From Terriglobia bacterium (lineage in GTDB: Bacteria; Acidobacteriota; Terriglobia; Acidiferrales; UBA7541): a DNA stretch of 64,000 bases. Under the pieces are notes generated by a model. That model worked only from the letters and a program-made list of their open reading frames with translations. It ran no database searches and had not been told where the DNA came from. Position numbers and translations under genes: made by a program. The first letter of the stretch is position 1. Each line of letters begins with the position of its first letter. Of this stretch, positions 7,949 through 60,586 are shown one piece after another. Location: NCBI GenBank assembly GCA_020073485.1, contig JAIQFB010000015.1, positions 1 through 64,000 on the forward strand, written 5' to 3'.

Positions 7949-8515
7949 TCATGGTTTCTGCCAGGAGCGCCAAGCAAACCAGGCGACCGTTCCCAACATG
8001 CCCATCCAACCTAGGATGCGGAACGTCGCGCCGATTTGCGTGTCGTGTTCGAGCAATCCCGAATGCGAGAACAGATAAAACCAGTCGTGGATTACGTCGT
8101 CGGAGTCGCCTACCGTCAGCAGCGGCAACTCTTGCGCTCGCGCGTCGGCCATGTAGATGCCGATCGGGATGAACTGCTCGAAGAAAAAGAAGGCGCAGAA
8201 GGCTGTGCCGGGAGTTTGCCGCTGGAAGGCAAACCAAGCCGCCAGAGCGAACGGAACGAATAGCTGAAGGAACGTTCCTCCCGCGACGGAGATCCATTCG
8301 CCGAAGATCCGGAACAGCAGATGCCCGCCTTCGTGAATGGGAATAAAGACCAGATCGAACAACTGCAGCAAATGGCCGCCCATGGCTGCATTTCCAATCA
8401 GCAGGACGTAGAATGCGAGCCATCCCCAGAACGCGGGTCGCGAAACCGGCAGCCAGCTTTCCTCGAGCGCGTCGAGAAACGGAAACCGTTCGCTGAGCGA
8501 TTCGGGGATGTCCAT
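7949..8515 (-). CDS. Small polytopic membrane protein with HEGGH motif
   Basis: This 188-residue protein has about five hydrophobic segments and the sequence FIPIHEGGHLLFRIFGEW. HEGGH resembles the HExxH zinc motif of intramembrane M50-type proteases, followed by charged EW residues that might complete a metal site. No PDZ or LDG motif is evident, so it may be a degenerate or distinct family. It lies between preT and preA on the same strand, starting 7 nt after the preT stop, so it is probably co-transcribed with them. A link to pyrimidine breakdown is not evident from the sequence. Confidence 0.7.
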   Translation of the reverse strand: MDIPESLSERFPFLDALEESWLPVSRPAFWGWLAFYVLLIGNAAMGGHLLQLFDLVFIPIHEGGHLLFRIFGEWISVAGGTFLQLFVPFALAAWFAFQRQTPGTAFCAFFFFEQFIPIGIYMADARAQELPLLTVGDSDDVIHDWFYLFSHSGLLEHDTQIGATFRILGWMGMLGTVAWFAWRSWQKP

Positions 8516-8521
8516 GGGAGG

Positions 8522-9898
8522 TCAATTCTCCCTGCGAGCGGCGCCGGAAGTTTCCTCCAGCCAGGCATCGATGCCGCGCGCGGCAGCCATGCCTTCGGCG
8601 ACGGCGTCCACCACTTCGCTGCCGCCGTTCACGCAGTCTCCGCCGGCAAAATATTTTTTATTCCCGGTCTGGTGATGGGCGTCGGCGACCACCGTGCCGT
8701 TCTTGCGCAGTTCGATTCCCTGCACCGCGCGCAGAAAATCCGTGACCGGCTTCTGCCCTACCGCGCGAACCACCATGTCCACGTCGATGGTGAATAGGCT
8801 GTCCGGGATGGGTTCCGGTGAGCGCCGCCCGCGCGCGTCCGGCGGTCCGAGCACAGTGCGGATGCATTCGAGGCCAGTCACCGCGCCACTATCGCCGAGG
8901 ATTCGTACCGGCTGCGTCTGCCAGAGAAAAATCACTTCGTCATTTTTCGCTAGCTCATGTTCATAAGGGAACGCCGACATCTCCTTCTCGCTGCGCCGGT
9001 AAACCAGATACACGGTCTCCGCACCCAGGCGCCGTGCGGCGGTGACCACGTCGATCGCCGTATTGCCCGCGCCGATGCACGCGATGCGCTTCCCGATGGA
9101 GACCTGCGGAAACGGCAATACTTTGGTGCGCTCGATGAATTCCATCGCTCCACAAACACCTTCCAGTTCTTCGCCCTCAATATCCATGGCCCAGGTTTCG
9201 CCGAGGCCCACGCCGATAAAAATCGCGTCGAACTCCTTTTCCAGTTGCGCAAAACTGATGTCGCGGCCGATTTCCACTTTTTGCTTAAACACCACGCCCA
9301 GCGATTTCACCATTTCCACTTCGCGCAGCGAATCCGAAACGCGCGTCTTATATGCGGCGATTCCGTAGGTGCTCAATCCGCCGGGTAGCTCGGCGCGATC
9401 GAAAATGGTTACCGCATACCCTTTTCTTGCCAGCGCCGCCGCGCAGGAAAGCGACGCGGGGCCTGACCCGATACAGGCCACGCGCCGTCCATTCGGCGAG
9501 CCCGCATGAAAAAGGCGTATGTTGCGGTCGAGTACATGATCGACGGCATAGCGCTGCAAGCGTCCTATCTCGATGGCCTCCTCGCCCTTCTCGACCATCA
9601 CGCACGCGCCTTCGCACAGCGCTTCGGTGGGACAGACGCGCCCGCATGTCTGGCCCAGAATATTCGCTTCCAGGATCACGCGGGCCGCGCCCCGCGTGTT
9701 CCCCGTCATGATCCGCTTGATGAATCCAGGGACGTCGATGCGCGTGGGGCAGGCGATCGTGCACGCCGCATCAAAACAGTACAGGCAGCGCGCCGCCTCG
9801 ATGGCGGCCTGGCGCGCGTTCATGCGCGGCGTGATATCCGCAAAACTTTCCTCGTATTGCTCGGGCGTCAATTTCGGCGCCGTCTCGCGAAGGGGCAT
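8522..9898 (-). CDS. preT: NADH-dependent dihydropyrimidine dehydrogenase subunit PreT
   Basis: PreT (458 aa) is the flavin/NADH-using partner of PreA. It starts with a GltD-like iron-sulfur domain (RCLYCFDAACTIACPTRID, then QTCGRVCPTEALCEGACV), followed by an FAD-binding GSGPASLSCAAALARKG motif and an NAD-binding GAGNTAIDVVTAARRLGA motif. The C-terminal FAD block GGDCVNGGSEVVDAVAEG is present. A GAGGAG site precedes the ATG. It is the first gene of the leftward preT-membrane protein-preA unit. Glutamate synthase small subunit is the nearest alternative, but preA next door decides the call. Confidence 0.93.
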   Translation of the reverse strand: MPLRETAPKLTPEQYEESFADITPRMNARQAAIEAARCLYCFDAACTIACPTRIDVPGFIKRIMTGNTRGAARVILEANILGQTCGRVCPTEALCEGACVMVEKGEEAIEIGRLQRYAVDHVLDRNIRLFHAGSPNGRRVACIGSGPASLSCAAALARKGYAVTIFDRAELPGGLSTYGIAAYKTRVSDSLREVEMVKSLGVVFKQKVEIGRDISFAQLEKEFDAIFIGVGLGETWAMDIEGEELEGVCGAMEFIERTKVLPFPQVSIGKRIACIGAGNTAIDVVTAARRLGAETVYLVYRRSEKEMSAFPYEHELAKNDEVIFLWQTQPVRILGDSGAVTGLECIRTVLGPPDARGRRSPEPIPDSLFTIDVDMVVRAVGQKPVTDFLRAVQGIELRKNGTVVADAHHQTGNKKYFAGGDCVNGGSEVVDAVAEGMAAARGIDAWLEETSGAARREN

Positions 9899-42291: not shown

Positions 42292-42933
42292 GTGATCAAG
42301 TTTTCGTTTATCGGAATGTCCGGCGCCGGAAAGTCTCATTGGGCCGAGAAACTGGCTGGGGCCGGATTTCGAGTGATCCGTGTGGACGATCGCATCGAGG
42401 AAAAACTCGCGCCGGAATTGGCCGGCGGGGGCTACAAAGGGATTGGGGGGGTCGCGGCATGGATGGGATGGCCCAACCAGCCGACCTATCGCGACCGGGA
42501 GCAAAAATATCTGGCACGTGAAGTGGAGTGCATGAACGAGGCGCTCGATGAAATGGAAACCGCGGGTGAAGAAGGAATGATCCTGGATACCACCGGGAGC
42601 GTGGTGTACACGGGCGACGAAATCTGCCGGCGCATGAAGAGCCTGACCGAGGTCGTGTATTTGGAGGCGCCCGCCGCCGAGGAAAGAATTCTGATTGCGC
42701 GATACCTTTCCGACCCCAAGCCCGTGCTGTGGGGCGATCAATTTGTTCCGCGCCCGGGAGAATCGGCGAGTGACACCGTCGCGCGCTGCTATCCCCGGCT
42801 GATCGCGCACCGCAAGAAGCTCTACGAAAAATACGCGCACCGCGTGGTTTCCATCGAGCGGTTGCGGAAGACGAATCCGGACGCGCGCGCATTTCTGGAG
42901 TACATCGACGCGCAGGCGCGGCCCGCGAGATGA
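42292..42933 (+). CDS. P-loop small-molecule kinase, shikimate-kinase-like
   Basis: From GTG 42292 the product is 213-214 residues with the ATP loop FIGMSGAGKSHWAEKLA, then VIRVDDRIEEKLAPEL and LDTTGSVVYTG. The fold suggests shikimate kinase, but the substrate-binding GEExFR and GGG motifs are missing, so the substrate is probably different. Its stop overlaps the thrC start (ATGA). That coupling hints at homoserine or another aspartate-family substrate, which is inference only. Longer frames read upstream repeats. Confidence 0.7.
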   Translation: MIKFSFIGMSGAGKSHWAEKLAGAGFRVIRVDDRIEEKLAPELAGGGYKGIGGVAAWMGWPNQPTYRDREQKYLAREVECMNEALDEMETAGEEGMILDTTGSVVYTGDEICRRMKSLTEVVYLEAPAAEERILIARYLSDPKPVLWGDQFVPRPGESASDTVARCYPRLIAHRKKLYEKYAHRVVSIERLRKTNPDARAFLEYIDAQARPAR

Positions 42934-44237
42934 AATATCGGAGCACACTGCGGCGCAGTCCGGAAGTCAGCTTGCGCGAAGCCGTGCTGCGCGGCTCAGC
43001 GCCCGACGGCGGCCTGTACATGCCGGTGGAAATGCCGCGATTGCCAGCCGATTTTCACGGTCGGCTGGCGAAGCTTTCGTTTCCGGAAATCGCGCAGGAA
43101 GTCGGCGGGCTCTTCACCGGCGGAGAAGTGCCTCCAGCGGTGCTGGCCAGGATCGTTACCGAGGCCTTCAATTTTCCCGTGCCGCTGGTCACGCTGAGCG
43201 AGCGGCTGCACATCCTGGAGCTGTTCCACGGGCCGACTCTGGCGTTCAAGGATTTTGGCGCGCGCTTCATGGCGCGCCTGATGGAATATTTCGTCCAGGA
43301 GTCGGGAAAACAGCTCACCGTCATCGTGGCGACGTCCGGCGATACGGGAAGCGCGGTGGCGCAGGCGTTTCTGGGGCTTCCGGGGATCCGCGTCGTAATT
43401 CTCTATCCTGCCGGGCGCGTCAGCGTCGCGCAGGAAAAACAGCTCACCACGCTGGGCCAGAATATTACCGCGCTGGAAGTGGCTGGATCGTTTGACGATT
43501 GCCAGCGCTTGGCAAAGCAGGCGCTGGTCGATCCGGACCTGGCCGCGAGGATCACGCTCACTTCGGCCAATTCCATCAACATCGGGCGGCTGATCCCACA
43601 GATTTTTTATTACTTTCATGCGGTTGCGCAGCTTCGCTTGCCGGAGATTCCGGCGATATTTGCCGTGCCCAGCGGGAACTTCGGGAATCTGACGGGCGGG
43701 CTGCTGGCCAAGCGCATCGGCCTGCGCGTGCCGCAATTCATCGCCACAACCAACGCCAACGACGTGTTTCCGGAATTCCTACGCAGCGGCAACATGATCC
43801 CGCGGGCCTCGCGGCACACGATTTCCAACGCCATGGACGTGGGAAACCCGAGCAATTTCGCGCGCATCGTCGATCTCTACGACAACGATTTGCAGGCCAT
43901 ACGCCACGACATCTGGGGCTGCAGCTTCAGCGACGAGGAAACGCTTCGCTGCATGCACGATGTCGACCTGCGGCACCAATATGTTCTCGATCCGCACACG
44001 GCCGTCGGGGTGCTCGGCTGGCAATGCTATGCCAAGCAGAATCCGGCGACCACCCAGGGCATCGTCCTGGCCACCGCGCATCCCGCGAAGTTCGCCGAGA
44101 CGGTCGCCCGGGCCACCGGCCTGCGTCCGGAGATGCCCGAGCGCCTGGCGGCGTTCCTGGGCCGCCCGAAAAAATCCATTCCGTTTCCCAACCGGTTTGC
44201 CGAGCTTCAGGAATTTCTACTTTCCACCAACTCCTGA
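42930..44237 (+). CDS. thrC: Threonine synthase
   Basis: ThrC (435 aa) converts O-phosphohomoserine to threonine. The N-terminal RGSAPDGGLYMPVEMP block, the PLP lysine K107 in GPTLAFKDFGARFM, ATSGDTGSAVAQAF and FAVPSGNFGNLTGGLLA are those of the E. coli/yeast-type ThrC. It is the conventional enzyme; a second, divergent threonine-synthase-like gene is at 54637. It overlaps the kinase gene by 4 nt. Confidence 0.95.
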   Translation: MKYRSTLRRSPEVSLREAVLRGSAPDGGLYMPVEMPRLPADFHGRLAKLSFPEIAQEVGGLFTGGEVPPAVLARIVTEAFNFPVPLVTLSERLHILELFHGPTLAFKDFGARFMARLMEYFVQESGKQLTVIVATSGDTGSAVAQAFLGLPGIRVVILYPAGRVSVAQEKQLTTLGQNITALEVAGSFDDCQRLAKQALVDPDLAARITLTSANSINIGRLIPQIFYYFHAVAQLRLPEIPAIFAVPSGNFGNLTGGLLAKRIGLRVPQFIATTNANDVFPEFLRSGNMIPRASRHTISNAMDVGNPSNFARIVDLYDNDLQAIRHDIWGCSFSDEETLRCMHDVDLRHQYVLDPHTAVGVLGWQCYAKQNPATTQGIVLATAHPAKFAETVARATGLRPEMPERLAAFLGRPKKSIPFPNRFAELQEFLLSTNS

Positions 44238-50325: not shown

Positions 50326-50441
50326 AGACTCACCGTCAAATTCAGTCTATAGTTTAATCCTAAGGAAGGAACGGCGCGCAGGCAAAGGAGCGGCGCTCGC
50401 GAATATGCAGGGCGCCTCGCTCCTCGATAGCGCTCCATCCG

Positions 50442-50475
50442 TTTTACAGGCGGGCTCCAAGTAGAGCCCACACCC
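50442..50475. repeat. Family C palindrome abutting the riboswitch-like leader
   Basis: TTTTACAGGCGGGCTCC, then AAGTAGAGCCCACACCCG. On the reverse strand its CTCTAC can pair with GTAGAG at the 5' end of the aptamer. Confidence 0.82.
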
Positions 50476-50642
50476 GCCCTCAGGATGACAGTGAGCAGGT
50501 ATTAGCCTGGCCCCCCAGCCGCCCCGGCGTGACTGCCGTCGGCGGCTTCGGCGGAAGAAACTGCCTTGCACCTTTCGCCCGGGCCTCCGAAGTTCCTCGG
50601 AATCGCTGCCCGGCTACTCATTGCTTCCGCTCCTCTACCAAG
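50458..50642 (-). promoter_or_regulatory. Lysine riboswitch (L-box) candidate upstream of dapE-dapB-dapA-dapD
   Basis: Read on the reverse strand, the leader has the ordered L-box landmarks: GGTAGAGGAGCGGAAGC, ATGAGTAGCC, GAGGAACTTCGGAGG, GCGAAAGGTGCAAGG, CCGCCGAAGCC, GGCGGCTGGGG and ACTGTCATCC. These match the conserved junction, GAGTA, GCCGAAG and GGCTGG positions of lysine riboswitches. Location in front of a diaminopimelate/lysine operon fits exactly. The closing stem would use GTAGAG with CTCTAC from a family C palindrome. Folding was judged by eye only. Confidence 0.75.
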
Positions 50643-50799
50643 ACGCTGCAAAGATACCACCCCGGCGCGCGCGGGGTCAAACATCGGCCCGTGGCGGAAA
50701 AGCCGCGCGCATTGCGGGCCAAGTTCCCGGGTGATAGACTCCGCCCGCTAGATTTTCACCGGCCCAGGTCGACCACACTCGAAAAACGAAGGAGACGAC

Positions 50800-54383: not shown

Positions 54384-54412
54384 TTGACACGGGGATAGGC
54401 TGAATCTATACT
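54384..54412 (+). promoter_or_regulatory. Sigma-70 promoter upstream of SAM-II leader
   Basis: TTGACA (54384-54389), a 17-nt spacer and TATACT (54407-54412) form a near-consensus promoter. Transcription would start near 54419, immediately before the riboswitch. Confidence 0.85.
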
Positions 54413-54423
54413 TTGTTCGCTGG

Positions 54424-54474
54424 ACACGTGGCGATTTAAGGCAACTTGCTCCACGTAAAAAACTGCTAAAGAGT
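54424..54474 (+). promoter_or_regulatory. SAM-II riboswitch
   Basis: The leader reads CGTGG, GATTTAAGGCAACTTGC, CCACG, TAAAAAACT and GCTAAAGAG. P1 pairs CGTGG (54427-54431) with CCACG (54451-54455); the GATTTAA, CTTGC and GCTAAA segments are the invariant parts of SAM-II aptamers. It starts right at the expected +1 and is followed by a terminator, then a threonine-synthase-like gene. SAM-II elements normally control methionine and SAM genes. Confidence 0.88.
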
Positions 54475-54502
54475 CGGACGAGCACTCAATCAGAAATTTT
54501 TG

Positions 54503-54540
54503 AGCCCTCCCCCTCTTTGGCGTGGAGGGTGTTTTATTTT
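54503..54540 (+). terminator. Rho-independent terminator, probable expression platform of the SAM-II riboswitch
   Basis: CCCTCC (54505-54510) pairs with GGAGGG (54524-54529), followed by TGTTTTATTTT. It lies 30 nt after the aptamer and about 97 nt before the coding start. Confidence 0.78.
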
Positions 54541-54636
54541 AGCCCCCTCGCGCCGCCCACCTGCAGCAGTTCATCCAGTCAGAACAAGATTCTTCATAGG
54601 TGGCCGCTGGATAGCCATCGAAAGCAGGAAGCCCTT

Positions 54637-55887
54637 ATGGCCGAACATTATCAGCTGAAGTGCCGTGAATGCGGGAAGTTGTGGGGAAATCAGGCGCGGT
54701 CGTTCTGCGAGGAGTGCCTCTCTCCCCTCGAAGTGGTCTATGATCTCGATGCCATCCGTCCCATTTTCACCCGTAAAAACATCGAGGCTGGCCCGAACAA
54801 TCTCTGGCGCTATAGCGCGCTGCTGCCCCTCCCGGAGGGCTACCAATGTACTCTCCCGACAGGGTTTACGCCACTGCTGCAGGCGCGGCGGCTGGGCAAG
54901 AAACTGGGCGCAAGCCAGCTGTACGTGAAAAACGACGCCGTGTGCTTCCCTACGCTTTCGTTTAAGGATCGCGTGGTGGCGACCGCCCTGGCTGCGGCGC
55001 GCCGGTTTGGTTTTCAGATCGTGAGTTGCTCTTCGACCGGCAACCTGGCCAACGCCGTGGCTGCGCAGGCCGCGCGCGAAGGGTTTGACGCCTGGATCTT
55101 CATTCCCGCTGATCTTGAGCCCGCCAAAATCACCGGCACGCAGGTATTCGGCGCAAAGCTGGTGCGCATCGCCGGCAACTACGACCAAGTGAACCGGCTG
55201 TGCTCGCAGATCGCCGAAAAATTCAACTGGGGATTCGTGAACGTGAATTTGCGGCCCTACTACGCCGAAGGCTCCAAAACCGTGGGCTACGAAATCGCCG
55301 AGCAACTCGGCTGGCGCCTGCCGGACAACATCGTGGTACCCATGGCCGGAGGCTCCCTGATCACCAAGATCCGCAAGGCCTTCAATGAATTGATTGCGCT
55401 GGGCCTGGTCGAGGAAAAGAAAGTGAAGTTCTTCGGCGCGCAAGCCACGGGCTGCTCCCCGATTTCCGACGCCGTGAAGCGCAATCTCGACCGATTCGAG
55501 CCGCAAAAGCCCGCCACGATTGCGCGCTCGCTCGCTATCGGGAATCCCGCCGATGGTTTTTACGCCTCGCGCGCCATCCGCGACAGCGGCGGCTGGGCCG
55601 AGGATGTTTCCGACGCCGATATCGTCAAGGGCATACAACTGCTGGCCGAAAACGAAGGAATTTTTACCGAAACGGCCGGCGGCGTAACCACCGGCGTGAC
55701 GCAAAAGCTGATCCAGCAGGGCTACATCAATCCCAGCGAAATCACTGTCGCCTGCATCACTGGAAACGGCCTCAAGACCATCGACGCGATTTCGCAGGAA
55801 TACACGCTGACGCCGGCGATCGAGCCGCGCCTATCCGTGTTTGAATCCTTCATCAACGACCGCATGGTCGCGGTCGCGGGAAATTAG
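54637..55887 (+). CDS. Threonine-synthase-like PLP enzyme under SAM-II control (possible homocysteine synthase)
   Basis: From ATG 54637 the protein has 416 residues: an N-terminal zinc ribbon (C9, C12, C24, C27 in LKCRECGKLWG and SFCEECLSP), then a fold-type II PLP domain with K110 in FPTLSFKDRVVATAL and phosphate loop SCSSTGNLANAVAAQAAREG. Usual ThrC has TGSFKDRG, so the lysine context differs. A SAM-II riboswitch upstream and a ThiS/MoaD-like gene 8 nt downstream point to methionine, not threonine, synthesis: perhaps O-phosphohomoserine plus carrier-bound sulfur to homocysteine. A conventional thrC is at 42930. Annotation pipelines would say threonine synthase. Confidence 0.85.
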   Translation: MAEHYQLKCRECGKLWGNQARSFCEECLSPLEVVYDLDAIRPIFTRKNIEAGPNNLWRYSALLPLPEGYQCTLPTGFTPLLQARRLGKKLGASQLYVKNDAVCFPTLSFKDRVVATALAAARRFGFQIVSCSSTGNLANAVAAQAAREGFDAWIFIPADLEPAKITGTQVFGAKLVRIAGNYDQVNRLCSQIAEKFNWGFVNVNLRPYYAEGSKTVGYEIAEQLGWRLPDNIVVPMAGGSLITKIRKAFNELIALGLVEEKKVKFFGAQATGCSPISDAVKRNLDRFEPQKPATIARSLAIGNPADGFYASRAIRDSGGWAEDVSDADIVKGIQLLAENEGIFTETAGGVTTGVTQKLIQQGYINPSEITVACITGNGLKTIDAISQEYTLTPAIEPRLSVFESFINDRMVAVAGN

Positions 55888-55894
55888 GAAAAAA

Positions 55895-56191
55895 ATGAAA
55901 ATCACCGTTGAAATCCCCACAGCGTTGCGCCGGTTCACCGACGGCGTGCAATCCATCGAATGCGGCTCGGCGACCTTACCTGAATTGATGGGCGAAATCG
56001 AGCAGCGATTTCCGGCCATCAGCAAGCACCTGCGCGACGATGCCGGACAGGTCCGGCGCTTCATCAACATCTACGTGAACGAGGAAGACATCCGCTTCCT
56101 TGGCGGCAACGAGTACAAGTTTCGTGAAGGCGACCGCGTGCTGGTGGTCCCCTCGATTGCCGGCGGAGCGCCCACAAATGCTTGTGGGTGA
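55895..56191 (+). CDS. ThiS/MoaD-like ubiquitin-fold sulfur carrier with extended C-terminus
   Basis: The 98-residue protein from ATG 55895 has the beta-grasp pattern: VEIPTALRRFTDG, LPELMGEIEQRFP, FINIYVNEEDIRFL and VLVVPSIAGG. Sulfur carriers end in Gly-Gly, which is converted to a thiocarboxylate; here the GG is followed by seven residues (APTNACG), so processing would be needed. It begins 7 nt after the PLP-enzyme stop and is likely its sulfur donor. Confidence 0.85.
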   Translation: MKITVEIPTALRRFTDGVQSIECGSATLPELMGEIEQRFPAISKHLRDDAGQVRRFINIYVNEEDIRFLGGNEYKFREGDRVLVVPSIAGGAPTNACG

Positions 56192-56243: not shown

Positions 56244-56271
56244 TTGACAATATTGGCAGCTGATTTAATCT
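56244..56271 (+). promoter_or_regulatory. Promoter upstream of the siroheme-gene leader
   Basis: TTGACA (56244-56249), a 16-nt spacer and TAATCT (56266-56271) predict a transcript starting near 56278, only a few bases before an ATG at 56281. Confidence 0.6.
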
Positions 56272-56280
56272 ATACAGGAA

Positions 56281-56382
56281 ATGATAATTACCACTTCCAA
56301 GGGAATTACGATTATGACGCGCACCCCCAAGTGTATTGGGGCGGCGCGGACCCCCTTGGGAGCCAAGGATATGAAAGCGTAG
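56281..56382 (+). CDS. Short leader peptide (33 aa) before siroheme genes
   Basis: An ATG at 56281 opens a 33-codon frame ending at TAG 56380-56382. The product contains KGITIMTRTPKCIG and ARTPLGAKDMKA, with two RTP-x-GA-like units and one cysteine. Translation could be near-leaderless given the predicted +1. An internal ATG at 56314 gives a 22-residue version. Its RNA has competing hairpins (CCCCAA/TTGGGG, CCTTGG/CCAAGG, CCCAAG/CTTGGG) ahead of a terminator, as in transcription attenuators. Confidence 0.5.
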   Translation: MIITTSKGITIMTRTPKCIGAARTPLGAKDMKA

Positions 56383-56411
56383 CAAGAAATCCTTCCAGCT
56401 CTTAAGATGCG

Positions 56412-56445
56412 GCCCGCGAAGCTAACCAGCTCGCGGGCGTTTTTG
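56412..56445 (+). terminator. Rho-independent terminator in the siroheme leader
   Basis: GCCCGCG(A)AGCT pairs with AGCTCGCGGGC around AACC, followed by GTTTTTGTTT. It lies 30 nt after the leader-peptide stop and 58 nt before the coding start. Confidence 0.85.
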
Positions 56446-56502
56446 TTTATGGGCCGGAATTTCTGCAGAGGGATTGCGGATTGCACGCGAAAGAATGAAG
56501 CC

Positions 56503-57075
56503 ATGAGTCTATTTCCCATGTTCGTGAAACTCGAGGGCCGCCAGTGCCTGGTGGTCGGCGCCGGTACGGTGGGCGAGGCGAAGATCGAAAGCCTCCTGGC
56601 CACCGACGCCGCCGTGCGCGTGGTAGCGCCGCACGCCACGCCGCGCGTGCGCGAATGGGCGCGCGAAGGCCGCATCGAATGGCACGCGCGGGAATATTCG
56701 CCGGCGGATTTCGCGGGGGTTTTTCTGGTGATCGCCGCGACAAATTCTCCCACGCTGCATGACGACATCTATGCGGAGGCGAAAAGCCGCGGCGTGCTCT
56801 GCAACTGCGTGGACGAGCCCGTGCGCTGCGACTTCTACTTCCCTGCCGTGGTGCGCCGCGGAGAATTGCAGATCGCCATCTCGACGGGCGGGCTGAGCCC
56901 CGCGCTGGCGCAGCGGCTGCGCAAGGAACTCGAACAGCAATTCGGTCCGGAGTGGGAGCAGTGGCTCGCGCAGCTCGGCCGCACACGCGATGAGCTGCAG
57001 AGCATCCCCATGCCGCCGGAACAGCGCAAGCGTCTGCTGCACCAGTACGCAAGCCTGGACCCGAAACCGCAGTAG
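56503..57075 (+). CDS. Precorrin-2 dehydrogenase/sirohydrochlorin ferrochelatase (CysG-N/Met8 type)
   Basis: This 190-residue protein oxidises precorrin-2 and inserts iron to make siroheme. It has the NAD-binding CLVVGAGTVGEAKIESLL, VIAATNSPTLHDDIYAEA, CNCVDEPVRCDFYFPAVVRR and LQIAISTGGLSPALAQRLR blocks. ATG 56503 is chosen because upstream codons cross the terminator. Siroheme is the cofactor of sulfite and nitrite reductases, tying this gene to sulfur assimilation. Confidence 0.92.
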   Translation: MSLFPMFVKLEGRQCLVVGAGTVGEAKIESLLATDAAVRVVAPHATPRVREWAREGRIEWHAREYSPADFAGVFLVIAATNSPTLHDDIYAEAKSRGVLCNCVDEPVRCDFYFPAVVRRGELQIAISTGGLSPALAQRLRKELEQQFGPEWEQWLAQLGRTRDELQSIPMPPEQRKRLLHQYASLDPKPQ

Positions 57076-57214: not shown

Positions 57215-58036
57215 ATGCCGGGAAAAGTCTATCTCGTGGGGGCCGGGCCGGGCGATCCGGAATTGCTGACGCGCAAGGCGTGGCGCGTGCTGCAGTCCGC
57301 CGACGCCGTGCTGCACGACGACCTCGTCTCGAGCGACATTCTGAGGACTTTGCCGGCGACCGCTCTGGTATTGAACGTGGGAAAGCGTTGCGGCGCGAAA
57401 GGAATTTCGCAGCGGGAAATAAATGAACGAATGGTGGAGCTTGCCCGCGAGGGAAAAATCGTCGCGCGCCTGAAGAGCGGCGATCCGCTGCTGTTCGGCC
57501 GCGGCGGCGAAGAGATGGAAGCGCTGCGCGAGGCAGGCGTCGAGTTTGAAGTAATTCCGGGGGTCACGTCTGCACTGGGCGCGGCGGCTTCGGCCGGGAT
57601 TTCGCTGACCGACCGGCGGCACGCCTCGCGCGTGGTGTTTGTTACGGCGCACCGCGAAGGCGGCTCGGGCCTGGTTCACGAGCGCGATGTGGCCGGGGAC
57701 ACCACCTACGTGATTTACATGCCCGGCAACCGCTACGCGGCGCTTTCCGCCGAATTGCAGGCCGCGGGAATCGGCGCGGAGATTCCCTGTGTTCTGATTT
57801 CGCGTGCGACGTCGAAAGATGAAAAGGTTTTTCGCACGACCGTCGGAAAATTGCCCGGGTGTCCGGCGGCAATTTCGCCCTCGCTGATCATTGTTGGCGC
57901 GGTCGCGGGCGCGGCGCTCAGCAAAGAACCGGAAACGTCCGAAGGCGAGCTTTCGCCCGAGATTTACGAGAACATTTTGAGTCTTGCTCTGCAACATCCA
58001 TTTCATGATTCGTCGAGGGGGAGCGGTGTCGAATAA
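57215..58036 (+). CDS. cobA: Uroporphyrinogen-III C-methyltransferase (SUMT)
   Basis: SUMT (273 aa) methylates uroporphyrinogen III twice with SAM to give precorrin-2. Motifs: VYLVGAGPGDPELLTRKAWR, ADAVLHDDLVS, VARLKSGDPLLFGRGGEEM, EVIPGVTSALGAAASAGIS and TYVIYMPGNR. Siroheme use is favoured by the neighbouring dehydrogenase; cobalamin is possible. Its end overlaps the asd start. Confidence 0.93.
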   Translation: MPGKVYLVGAGPGDPELLTRKAWRVLQSADAVLHDDLVSSDILRTLPATALVLNVGKRCGAKGISQREINERMVELAREGKIVARLKSGDPLLFGRGGEEMEALREAGVEFEVIPGVTSALGAAASAGISLTDRRHASRVVFVTAHREGGSGLVHERDVAGDTTYVIYMPGNRYAALSAELQAAGIGAEIPCVLISRATSKDEKVFRTTVGKLPGCPAAISPSLIIVGAVAGAALSKEPETSEGELSPEIYENILSLALQHPFHDSSRGSGVE

Positions 58037-59132
58037 CAAAGTGCGGGTGGGAATTCTGGGCGCGACCGGAATGGTCGGCCAACGATTTGTGCAGATACTG
58101 GAACACCATCCGGGATTTGAGGTCACTGCGCTGGCGGCCTCGGACCGGTCGCAGGGAAAGCCGTACGCGGAAGCCTGTACCTGGCGGCTGGTGGGCGACA
58201 TGCCGAGCTTCGCGAGAGCGATGATCGTGCAGCAGCCGCAGCCGCCGCTGGATTGCGACGTGGTCGTGTCGAGTTTGCCCTCCGACGTGGCGCGCGCCAG
58301 CGAAGAAGCCTTTGCCCGCGCCGGCTATCCGGTCATCAGCAACGCTTCCAGTTTGCGCATGGACGAGGATGTACCCCTCCTGATTCCCGAAATCAATTCT
58401 CATCATCTCAATGTCCTGGAACGCCAGAAGCAGGAGCGCGGGTTCACCAGCGGCTACATTGTCACGAATCCGAACTGCTCGACGATCATCATGGCGCTGG
58501 CGCTGGCGCCGCTGCATGCGAAATTCGGCATCGAAGCCGTGATCGCCACCACGCTGCAGGCCGTTTCCGGCGCCGGCTATCCCGGCGTGCCGTCGCTCGA
58601 CGTGGTCGATAACGTGATTCCCTTCATCGGCGGCGAAGAGCCGAAGATGGAAAGCGAGACTCGGAAAATTTTGGGGAACCTGGGCCGCAATTCCTTTGAG
58701 AACGCTCCCTTCGCAGTCAGCGCGCAATGCCATCGTGTGAACGTCACCGACGGACACTTGGTTGCGGTGCGCGTAAAGCTCGCCAAGCGCGTCTCGATCG
58801 ATCAGGTGCGCGAGGCTCTGGCGTCGTACCGCTCCGTGCCGCAGGAACTGAAACTGCACACTGCGCCGAAGCATCCGGTCCTGGTGCGCAGCGAAGATGA
58901 CCGGCCGCAGCCGCGCCTGGACCGCGACGCGGGCGGCGGCATGAGCGTCACCGTCGGGCGACTGTTCCCGGACAGCGTGTTCGATTACCGTTTCGTGGTG
59001 CTGGGCCACAACACGGTTCGCGGGGCGGCCGGTGCGGCGATCTTGAACGCCGAACTGCTGCAGGCGCGCGGCCTGCTGACTGCTAACTCCGCGCCGGAAA
59101 CCGCGGGCGCCGCCAAAGCGAGGGTGCGATGA
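58026..59132 (+). CDS. asd: Aspartate-semialdehyde dehydrogenase
   Basis: Asd (368 aa from GTG 58026) reduces aspartyl-phosphate, feeding lysine, threonine and methionine. It has VGILGATGMVGQRFVQILE, the active-site cysteine C151 in VTNPNCSTIIMALAL, and SAQCHRVNVTDGH, marking the archaeal/fungal-type Asd. The start overlaps cobA by 11 nt and follows GAGGGGG. It overlaps lysC by 4 nt. Confidence 0.93.
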   Translation: MSNNKVRVGILGATGMVGQRFVQILEHHPGFEVTALAASDRSQGKPYAEACTWRLVGDMPSFARAMIVQQPQPPLDCDVVVSSLPSDVARASEEAFARAGYPVISNASSLRMDEDVPLLIPEINSHHLNVLERQKQERGFTSGYIVTNPNCSTIIMALALAPLHAKFGIEAVIATTLQAVSGAGYPGVPSLDVVDNVIPFIGGEEPKMESETRKILGNLGRNSFENAPFAVSAQCHRVNVTDGHLVAVRVKLAKRVSIDQVREALASYRSVPQELKLHTAPKHPVLVRSEDDRPQPRLDRDAGGGMSVTVGRLFPDSVFDYRFVVLGHNTVRGAAGAAILNAELLQARGLLTANSAPETAGAAKARVR

Positions 59133-60586
59133 GCCGTCCGATCCAGGTGATGAAATTCGGCGGCACGTCCGTGGGCGATGCCGGGCGCATTCGCAGCGCG
59201 GCGAAAATCGCGGCGGATACTTCCCGGGACCGCGCCGTCGTTGTGGTGGTTTCGGCCATGTCCGGAGTGACCAATACGCTGATCGCGGCGGCGGGAAAAG
59301 CGGCGGCCGGCGATGAAGGGGCGGCGGAAGCTCTGGCCAAGGCGCTGCAGGCCAAGCATCACGAGGCCATCGGCGAGTTGATCACCAACATCGAGCGGCG
59401 CCGCGAACTGCTCGCCGAAATCGACGCGCTGATCGAACGCGCGGCGAATCATTGCCGTGGTTGCGCGCTGCTCGGAGAACTTTCGCCGCGCGCGCTGGAC
59501 GTGATCGCCGGCACCGGCGAGCGGCTCACCGCGCGCATCACCGCGGCCGTGCTGCGCGAAATGGGCTATCGCGGCGTGGCCTTCGACGCGACCGATCTGA
59601 TCGTGACCGATGAGGTACACGGCGGCGCAAGGCCCCTGGCCGTGCCGACGCGTACGAAGACGCAGGCGGCGCTGCTGCCGTTGCTCGAAGCGGACGGGAT
59701 ACCGGTCGTCACCGGCTACATTGCCGCCACTGCCAAGGGTGTACCCACGACGCTGGGCCGCGGCGGTTCGGATTATTCCGCCACGATTCTGGGCGCGGCG
59801 CTGGACGCGAGCGAAGTCATCATCTGGACCGACGTAAACGGCGTGCTCACTGCGGACCCCAGGATGGTCCCCGACGCCGTCACGCTCGACGAAGTTTCCT
59901 ACGCCGAGGCGGGCGAGCTCGCATTTTTTGGAGCGAAGGTACTTCACCCGATGACGCTGCGCCCTGTGATTGAAAGCGCCATTCCCGTGTGGATCCGCAA
60001 CAGCTTCCAGCCGCAGCAGGCCGGAACCAAGATCACTCACACGGTGCGGCCCGCGCCCAAGGGCGTCAAGGCCGTGACGGCCACGCGCGATGTGGCCATG
60101 ATCTCGGTGGCCGGGCCGGGAATTATCGGCGTGCCGGACATTGCCGCGCGGATTTTCGGGGCCACCGCGTCGGTGCGCGCCAATATCGTGATGATTTCGC
60201 AATCGTCCTCGCAGGACAGCATTTGCTTTGTGGTGCAGGCCGGCGACGCAACGCGCACGGAAAAGGCGCTGCGCGATGCCCTGTACGAAGACGTTCACCT
60301 GCACGACCTGGAACACGTGAAGGTGAACCGCAACGTGGCCATCGTCGCAGCGGTCGGAGAAAATATGGCCGGAACCCCGGGCATCGCCGGCGCCGTCTTC
60401 AGCACCATGGGCAAGGAAGCGATCAACATCATCGCCATTGCGCAGGGCTCTTCCGAATACAACATTTCATTTCTGGTGGATTCCACCGGAATGGAAAAGG
60501 CCGTGAAGGCGCTGCACCAGGCGTTCGGCCTGGGCAAGCAGGAACTGGGCGGCGAAGCACGGCCGGTCGCGCAGGTGACTTCTTAA
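59129..60586 (+). CDS. lysC: Aspartate kinase with two ACT domains
   Basis: The 485-residue kinase phosphorylates aspartate, the first step of the aspartate family. N-terminal QVMKFGGTSVGDAGRIRSAA, GRGGSDYSATILGAALDA and WTDVNGVLTADPR are typical. Two C-terminal ACT domains (around VAMISVAGPGIIGVPDIAAR and VAIVAAVGENMAGTPGIAGA) suggest feedback control by lysine and/or threonine. No fused homoserine dehydrogenase is present. Confidence 0.94.
   Translation: MSRPIQVMKFGGTSVGDAGRIRSAAKIAADTSRDRAVVVVVSAMSGVTNTLIAAAGKAAAGDEGAAEALAKALQAKHHEAIGELITNIERRRELLAEIDALIERAANHCRGCALLGELSPRALDVIAGTGERLTARITAAVLREMGYRGVAFDATDLIVTDEVHGGARPLAVPTRTKTQAALLPLLEADGIPVVTGYIAATAKGVPTTLGRGGSDYSATILGAALDASEVIIWTDVNGVLTADPRMVPDAVTLDEVSYAEAGELAFFGAKVLHPMTLRPVIESAIPVWIRNSFQPQQAGTKITHTVRPAPKGVKAVTATRDVAMISVAGPGIIGVPDIAARIFGATASVRANIVMISQSSSQDSICFVVQAGDATRTEKALRDALYEDVHLHDLEHVKVNRNVAIVAAVGENMAGTPGIAGAVFSTMGKEAINIIAIAQGSSEYNISFLVDSTGMEKAVKALHQAFGLGKQELGGEARPVAQVTS

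Follow-up and report, generated by a model that had tools for sequence, protein, structure and literature searches.

A candidate SAM-controlled operon for MetM/MetO-type homocysteine synthesis in Acidobacteriota

Introduction

Several bacteria are known to pair a dedicated sulfur carrier protein with a pyridoxal phosphate (PLP) enzyme. In Mycobacterium tuberculosis, the enzyme CysM and the carrier CysO make cysteine from O-phosphoserine. In the HcyS pathway of Wolinella, reportedly described by Krishnamoorthy and Begley in 2011, a ThiS-like carrier supplies sulfur for homocysteine, and the acceptor is said to be a MetY-type enzyme acting on O-acetylhomoserine.

A further example is the MetM/MetO route of Streptomyces albulus (Hasebe, Adachi, Maruyama and Hamano 2024, doi 10.1128/aem.01247-24), as cited in PMC12172450. 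By that citing account, MetM is credited with homocysteine synthesis from O-phosphohomoserine, and is accompanied by a carrier gene and an upstream SAM riboswitch. The citing paper also describes the use of Na2S as a sulfur source to mimic MetM activity, and a homologue from Microcystis (51.6% identity with MetM) that acted as a threonine synthase in vitro and failed to increase methionine in vivo. By analogy, the cyanobacterial activity warns against assuming strict specificity.

Herein, we describe an operon located within a 64,000-nucleotide stretch of DNA from a soil acidobacterium, which we call the window. Sequence features, conservation, clade structure, riboswitch classes and gene co-occurrence were computed, and from these we infer the substrate, the sulfur donor and the direction of switching. 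On this basis, we judge that the operon very probably encodes a homocysteine route of the MetM/MetO type under feedback control by SAM.

Results and Discussion

A threonine synthase-like enzyme and its sulfur carrier

The protein-coding features most relevant to this proposal are as follows.

54637-55887, + strand: ThrC2, a MetM-like homocysteine synthase candidate (416 amino acids, threonine synthase fold, zinc ribbon)
55895-56191, + strand: MetO-like or CysO-like sulfur carrier of the ThiS family (98 amino acids, 7 nt after ThrC2)
42930-44237, + strand: conventional threonine synthase gene, thrC

The initial annotation had recognized ThrC2 as a zinc-ribbon, threonine synthase-like enzyme with a divergent lysine context, and these attributes are evident in cysteines C9, C12, C24 and C27 and in catalytic K110, which lies within TLSFKDRV. 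The protein matches threonine synthase with 164.6 bits versus 26.2 bits for CysM. It also scores 265.7 bits with the thrC equivalog model TIGR00260 (cut-off 167.1), a model that matches every ThrC2 gene too. The closest solved relatives are the threonine synthases 1v7c and 2c2b (22-34% identity), whose fold is shared by the predicted structure (pLDDT 88), with 2c2b as the best structural match listed (Z 44.5, rmsd 2.2 over 376 residues). The 50 VIA-align matches listed for this model include no CysM-type fold, an absence that excludes nothing.

Although the fold is shared, ThrC2 differs from these threonine synthases in its gene neighbours, its regulation and its substrate-site positions. The clade-invariant changes include Y209 (R160 in the Thermus thermophilus enzyme), L137 (T88), N204 and R206. 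Residues N154, S155 and R160 of T. thermophilus threonine synthase, which we take to form the phosphate site, correspond in ThrC2 to N202, N204 and Y209, such that the first is kept and the other two are replaced throughout the clade. The roles given to these positions are those of the corresponding residues in the T. thermophilus structure.

The adjacent gene, as previously noted, codes for a ThiS/MoaD-like protein, and its best PDB relatives are 4n6e (a ThiS/MoaD family protein) and M. tuberculosis CysO. Its C-terminus (...PSIAGG-APTNACG) extends seven residues beyond Gly-Gly. Terriglobia carriers (window positions 56168-56191 and relatives) carry from 1 to more than 20 poorly conserved residues past this point, and carriers end at Gly-Gly in Nitrospirota, Myxococcota, many Dadabacteria and other Acidobacteriota. 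A search of the window and the relatives' loci for M67/JAMM proteases gave matches in only two loci (L099 and L042) and tied no protease to the carrier tail. At three loci (L048, positions 8167-8679, and also L053 and L069), the carrier is fused to a C-terminal NIL domain.

The window pair shares with the S. albulus system a threonine synthase-like enzyme, a sulfur carrier gene and an upstream SAM riboswitch. It differs in that its aptamer is a divergent SAM-II, whereas an actinomycete proxy has SAM-I, in that its host is an acidobacterium lacking MetX and MetA, and in that its carrier bears a C-terminal tail. The ThiS-like carrier supplying sulfur for homocysteine is a point of similarity with the Wolinella HcyS pathway, but in the window the enzyme is of the threonine synthase type, in a genome without a MetX to supply acylhomoserine. 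With the CysM/CysO/Mec system the window has in common a close solved carrier and the clustering of a fold-type II PLP enzyme with a carrier. However, that system is not known to be under SAM control, and no Mec-type gene was found within the 64 kb window.

A divergent SAM-II-related aptamer and a predicted attenuator

Upstream of ThrC2, the following elements are arranged on the + strand.

54384-54412, + strand: sigma-70-like promoter (TTGACA at 54384, TATACT at 54407, 17-nt spacer)
54418-54489, + strand: divergent SAM-II (SAM_alpha) aptamer, from an Rfam covariance model match and a conserved core
Within the aptamer, + strand: P1 arms CACGTGG at 54425 and CCACGT at 54451, GATTTA at 54433 and GCTAAAG at 54465
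54449-54527, + strand: predicted antiterminator, in which CTCCAC and GCTAAAGAG are paired with CTCTTTGGCGTGGAG
54505-54541, + strand: intrinsic terminator (CCCTCC at 54505, GGAGGG at 54529, then a T-rich run)

The near-consensus promoter and the terminator of the initial annotation are both readily apparent. Its assignment of a SAM-II aptamer, for which it had proposed a covariance-model search, requires some refinement. When all 4227 Rfam families were searched, positions 54418-54489 matched SAM_alpha (RF00521) with 24.8 bits (E 0.0012), a score that falls below the gathering score of 36 bits, and therefore we term the aptamer SAM-II-related. Because of this score the default Rfam scan made no call, and the match was detected in e-value mode only. 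We judge the aptamer to be real mainly because its core, GATTTA..CTTGCTCCACGT..GCTAAAG, is near-identical in four relatives' loci (L002, L003, L029 and L040), where the flanks diverge and the identity of the ThrC2 proteins falls to as low as 67%.

The P1 stem and the GAUUUA, CUUGC and GCUAAAG core of SAM-II are present, but L1 is short and the Rfam-consensus P2 pairing (CGGCC/GGCCG) is absent. Short alternatives for the P2 pseudoknot, formed by L1 with the 3' segment, can be found by eye among sequences that are near-identical and so offer no covariation. In PMC4239095 and PMC2864571, SAM-II types are listed from Alphaproteobacteria, Bacteroidetes and marine samples only, and the present example places a divergent member in Acidobacteriota.

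The predicted antiterminator draws one half from CTCCAC (54449-54454), which is the P1 3' arm, and from GCTAAAGAG (54465-54473), which is the ligand-core segment, and the other half from CTCTTTGGCGTGGAG (54513-54527) inside the terminator. This 15-bp helix has a predicted stability of -19.6 kcal/mol versus a mean of -9.2 for 300 shuffled sequences, of which none was as good. Support is similar in the near-identical L002, where 2/300 shuffles were equally good, and is lower in L003, L029 and L040 (7 to 17 of 300). Since the helix excludes both the aptamer and the terminator, the arrangement is most naturally read as a transcription attenuator that SAM turns off. At low SAM concentrations, GCUAAAG and the P1 3' arm would pair with the terminator loop to allow transcription to continue, and SAM binding would favour formation of the aptamer and the terminator that halts transcription.

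Two riboswitch classes associate with one gene

Among the ThrC2 upstream regions of relatives, the SAM-II motif was not found beyond the four loci noted above. In other Acidobacteriota, ThrC2 is preceded by SAM-I (59-98 bits), a class also found at three additional loci (L048, L067 and L079) and in Nonomuraea (L159). A separate acidobacterial sample of 40 loci yielded SAM-I in 22, of which 18 are directly upstream of ThrC2 and 4 reside approximately 2.4 kb upstream, ahead of a ThiF-type E1 gene. Further Acidobacteriaceae loci, mostly from cultured isolates, exhibited SAM-I in 6/6 cases, in contrast with 0/4 at the loci carrying SAM-II. Given that the same gene in relatives sits behind an unrelated RNA, SAM control of ThrC2 has been retained while the riboswitch class has been exchanged.

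ThrC2 forms a distinct and widespread clade

A FastTree phylogeny places ThrC2 in a single clade apart from threonine synthases of the same phylum (long branch of 0.5, support 0.95-0.96), with hosts among the Acidobacteriota, Dadabacteria, Nitrospirota, Chloroflexota, Myxococcota and actinomycetes. The survey of ThrC2 and carrier genes that had been suggested earlier reveals a pair that is conserved across phyla, with the carrier adjacent or nearby in 75/80 first-pass loci, mostly directly after ThrC2 and within about 150 nt. MetH is present at 41 loci, running in the same direction as ThrC2 in most Acidobacteriaceae and on the opposite strand in Dadabacteria. ThiF-type E1 genes are near ThrC2 in 15 loci, and lysC in 17. 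One cluster (L048) has the order SAM-I, PALP enzyme, ThiF, ThrC2, sulfite reductase, TusA, ThiS-NIL and ThiF, and a PALP (CysM-like) gene also shares the cluster at L071.

The clade includes the SAM-I/ThrC2/carrier locus of Nonomuraea, whose protein groups with that of the window (55% identity) and serves as an actinomycete proxy rather than as S. albulus MetM itself. By clade membership through this proxy, by its carrier and by its SAM control, the window pair belongs to the MetM/MetO kind, and its biochemistry is proposed on these grounds. ThrC2 pairs are much wider in distribution than the citing paper PMC12172450 mentions, and the regulator is new.

In a basal subclade of 13, most members have neither carrier nor switch, and the function of this group may differ from that of the core ThrC2 group. 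In some of these genomes (G013:C159, G167:C76, G183:C6 and G159:C19), a second threonine synthase-like gene occurs in tandem, within about 2 kb of ThrC2.

MetX and MetA are rare in Acidobacteriota with core-clade ThrC2

The source genome has no MetX match above 90 bits (the best, at 86 bits, is an esterase-like protein) and no MetA was found in it, as would be anticipated from the original proposal. The candidate MetX at C34:9283 was rejected as an esterase-like member of PRK06489. The genome does encode MetH, a MoeZ-like E1-rhodanese and a second E1, and two PF01053 enzymes remain.

We surveyed 197 Acidobacteriota genomes, counting MetX at 200 bits or more. MetX or MetA is encoded by 1/36 genomes with a core-clade ThrC2 versus 63/148 without ThrC2 (Fisher p ~1e-6, a value that ignores phylogeny), and by 3/13 genomes with a basal-subclade ThrC2. 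Within the class of the source genome, the corresponding numbers are 0/17 with ThrC2 versus 5/6 without. Outside the phylum, MetX (277-478 bits) occurs alongside ThrC2 in 9/23 genomes, mostly of Dadabacteria. Thus, the exclusion is strong within Acidobacteriota but is not universal.

Proposed mechanism and alternative explanations

ThrC2, a PLP enzyme of fold-type II, appears to have evolved from a threonine synthase. Its most likely substrate is O-phosphohomoserine, from which it would eliminate phosphate and then add sulfur at the gamma carbon, rather than water at the beta carbon, to yield homocysteine for MetH. The C-terminal glycine of the carrier would be adenylated by a ThiF-type E1 and then thiolated, for which the MoeZ-like E1-rhodanese is a plausible contributor, before sulfur is handed over as a thiocarboxylate; free sulfide may substitute. 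The initial annotation had proposed this same chemistry, which is supported by its match to the MetM/MetO route as described in PMC12172450. Its suggestion that the route was new is not upheld, because by the same account the route had already been published (Hasebe et al. 2024).

With its threonine synthase fold, and with a thrC equivalog score above the cut-off, ThrC2 could simply be a second threonine synthase whose control by SAM balances flux through the aspartate family. The in vitro activity of the cyanobacterial homologue (PMC12172450) is in keeping with this explanation. Moreover, although 66/73 ThrC2 genomes contain a further ThrC match scoring at or above 209 bits, the other seven include five with weaker extra matches and two (G124 and G210) with none. 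Because these two have no other threonine synthase match, some ThrC2 members may also make threonine. For the window, however, we regard this function as very improbable. Threonine synthesis is covered by a separate thrC, as the initial annotation had pointed out, and the same is true of most ThrC2 genomes. Repression by SAM would be odd for threonine, and ThrC2 genes are linked to those for the carrier, E1, MetH, TusA and sulfite reductase. In addition, MetX and MetA are replaced in Acidobacteriota, and the phosphate-site Arg160 is lost clade-wide. Even more remote is the notion that ThrC2 makes cysteine from O-phosphoserine and a carrier thiocarboxylate in the manner of M. tuberculosis CysM/CysO. 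Among proteins of known structure, CysO is a close relative of the carrier, and a CysM-like PALP gene lies in the same cluster at two loci, but where present this gene comes in addition to ThrC2, which is far nearer to threonine synthase than to CysM. Furthermore, control is exerted by SAM rather than by cysteine, and MetH is adjacent.

Less easily set aside, although still unlikely in our estimation, is a version in which ThrC2 makes homocysteine from free sulfide and the carrier, being merely co-regulated, serves another enzyme. The basal members and a few SAM-I loci have no adjacent carrier, and Na2S was the sulfur source chosen to mimic MetM activity in PMC12172450. Nevertheless, no other neighbour is as well conserved across phyla as the carrier, and E1 and TusA genes occur in the same operons.

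If carrier-fed homocysteine synthesis from O-phosphohomoserine is indeed the function of this pair, proteins annotated as threonine synthases are probably homocysteine synthases, and the missing MetX/MetA step would be filled in the many soil Acidobacteriota to which automated tools would assign a methionine deficiency. We lean, with only modest confidence, towards a broader proposal in which this serves as the principal route to methionine in much of the Acidobacteriota and is distributed over six phyla or more, SAM-I was replaced by SAM-II in the lineage of the window, and its carriers acquired C-terminal tails whose removal must precede activation. The locus would also provide an example of one gene whose SAM control was retained through an exchange of riboswitch class.

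Additional features in the window

Siroheme genes, asd and lysC, which had been listed as neighbours, are all present downstream.

56503-57075, + strand: siroheme synthase N-terminal part (precorrin-2 dehydrogenase/ferrochelatase type), context
57215-58036, + strand: uroporphyrinogen-III methyltransferase-type gene, context
57984-59132, + strand: aspartate-semialdehyde dehydrogenase (asd), context
59129-60586, + strand: aspartate kinase (lysC), context

Between the carrier and the siroheme genes, positions 56244-56446 (+ strand) include a promoter-like TTGACA/TATACA, a structured RNA of approximately 170 nt (fold z -3.6) and a strong intrinsic terminator. This element has no Rfam match, is kept in L002 and L003 and was not seen in L029 or L040, and we consider it a candidate orphan RNA or leader. 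Elsewhere in the window, a lysine riboswitch (50420-50645, - strand, 59.7 bits) precedes genes of the M20-peptidase and dapB types, also on the minus strand.
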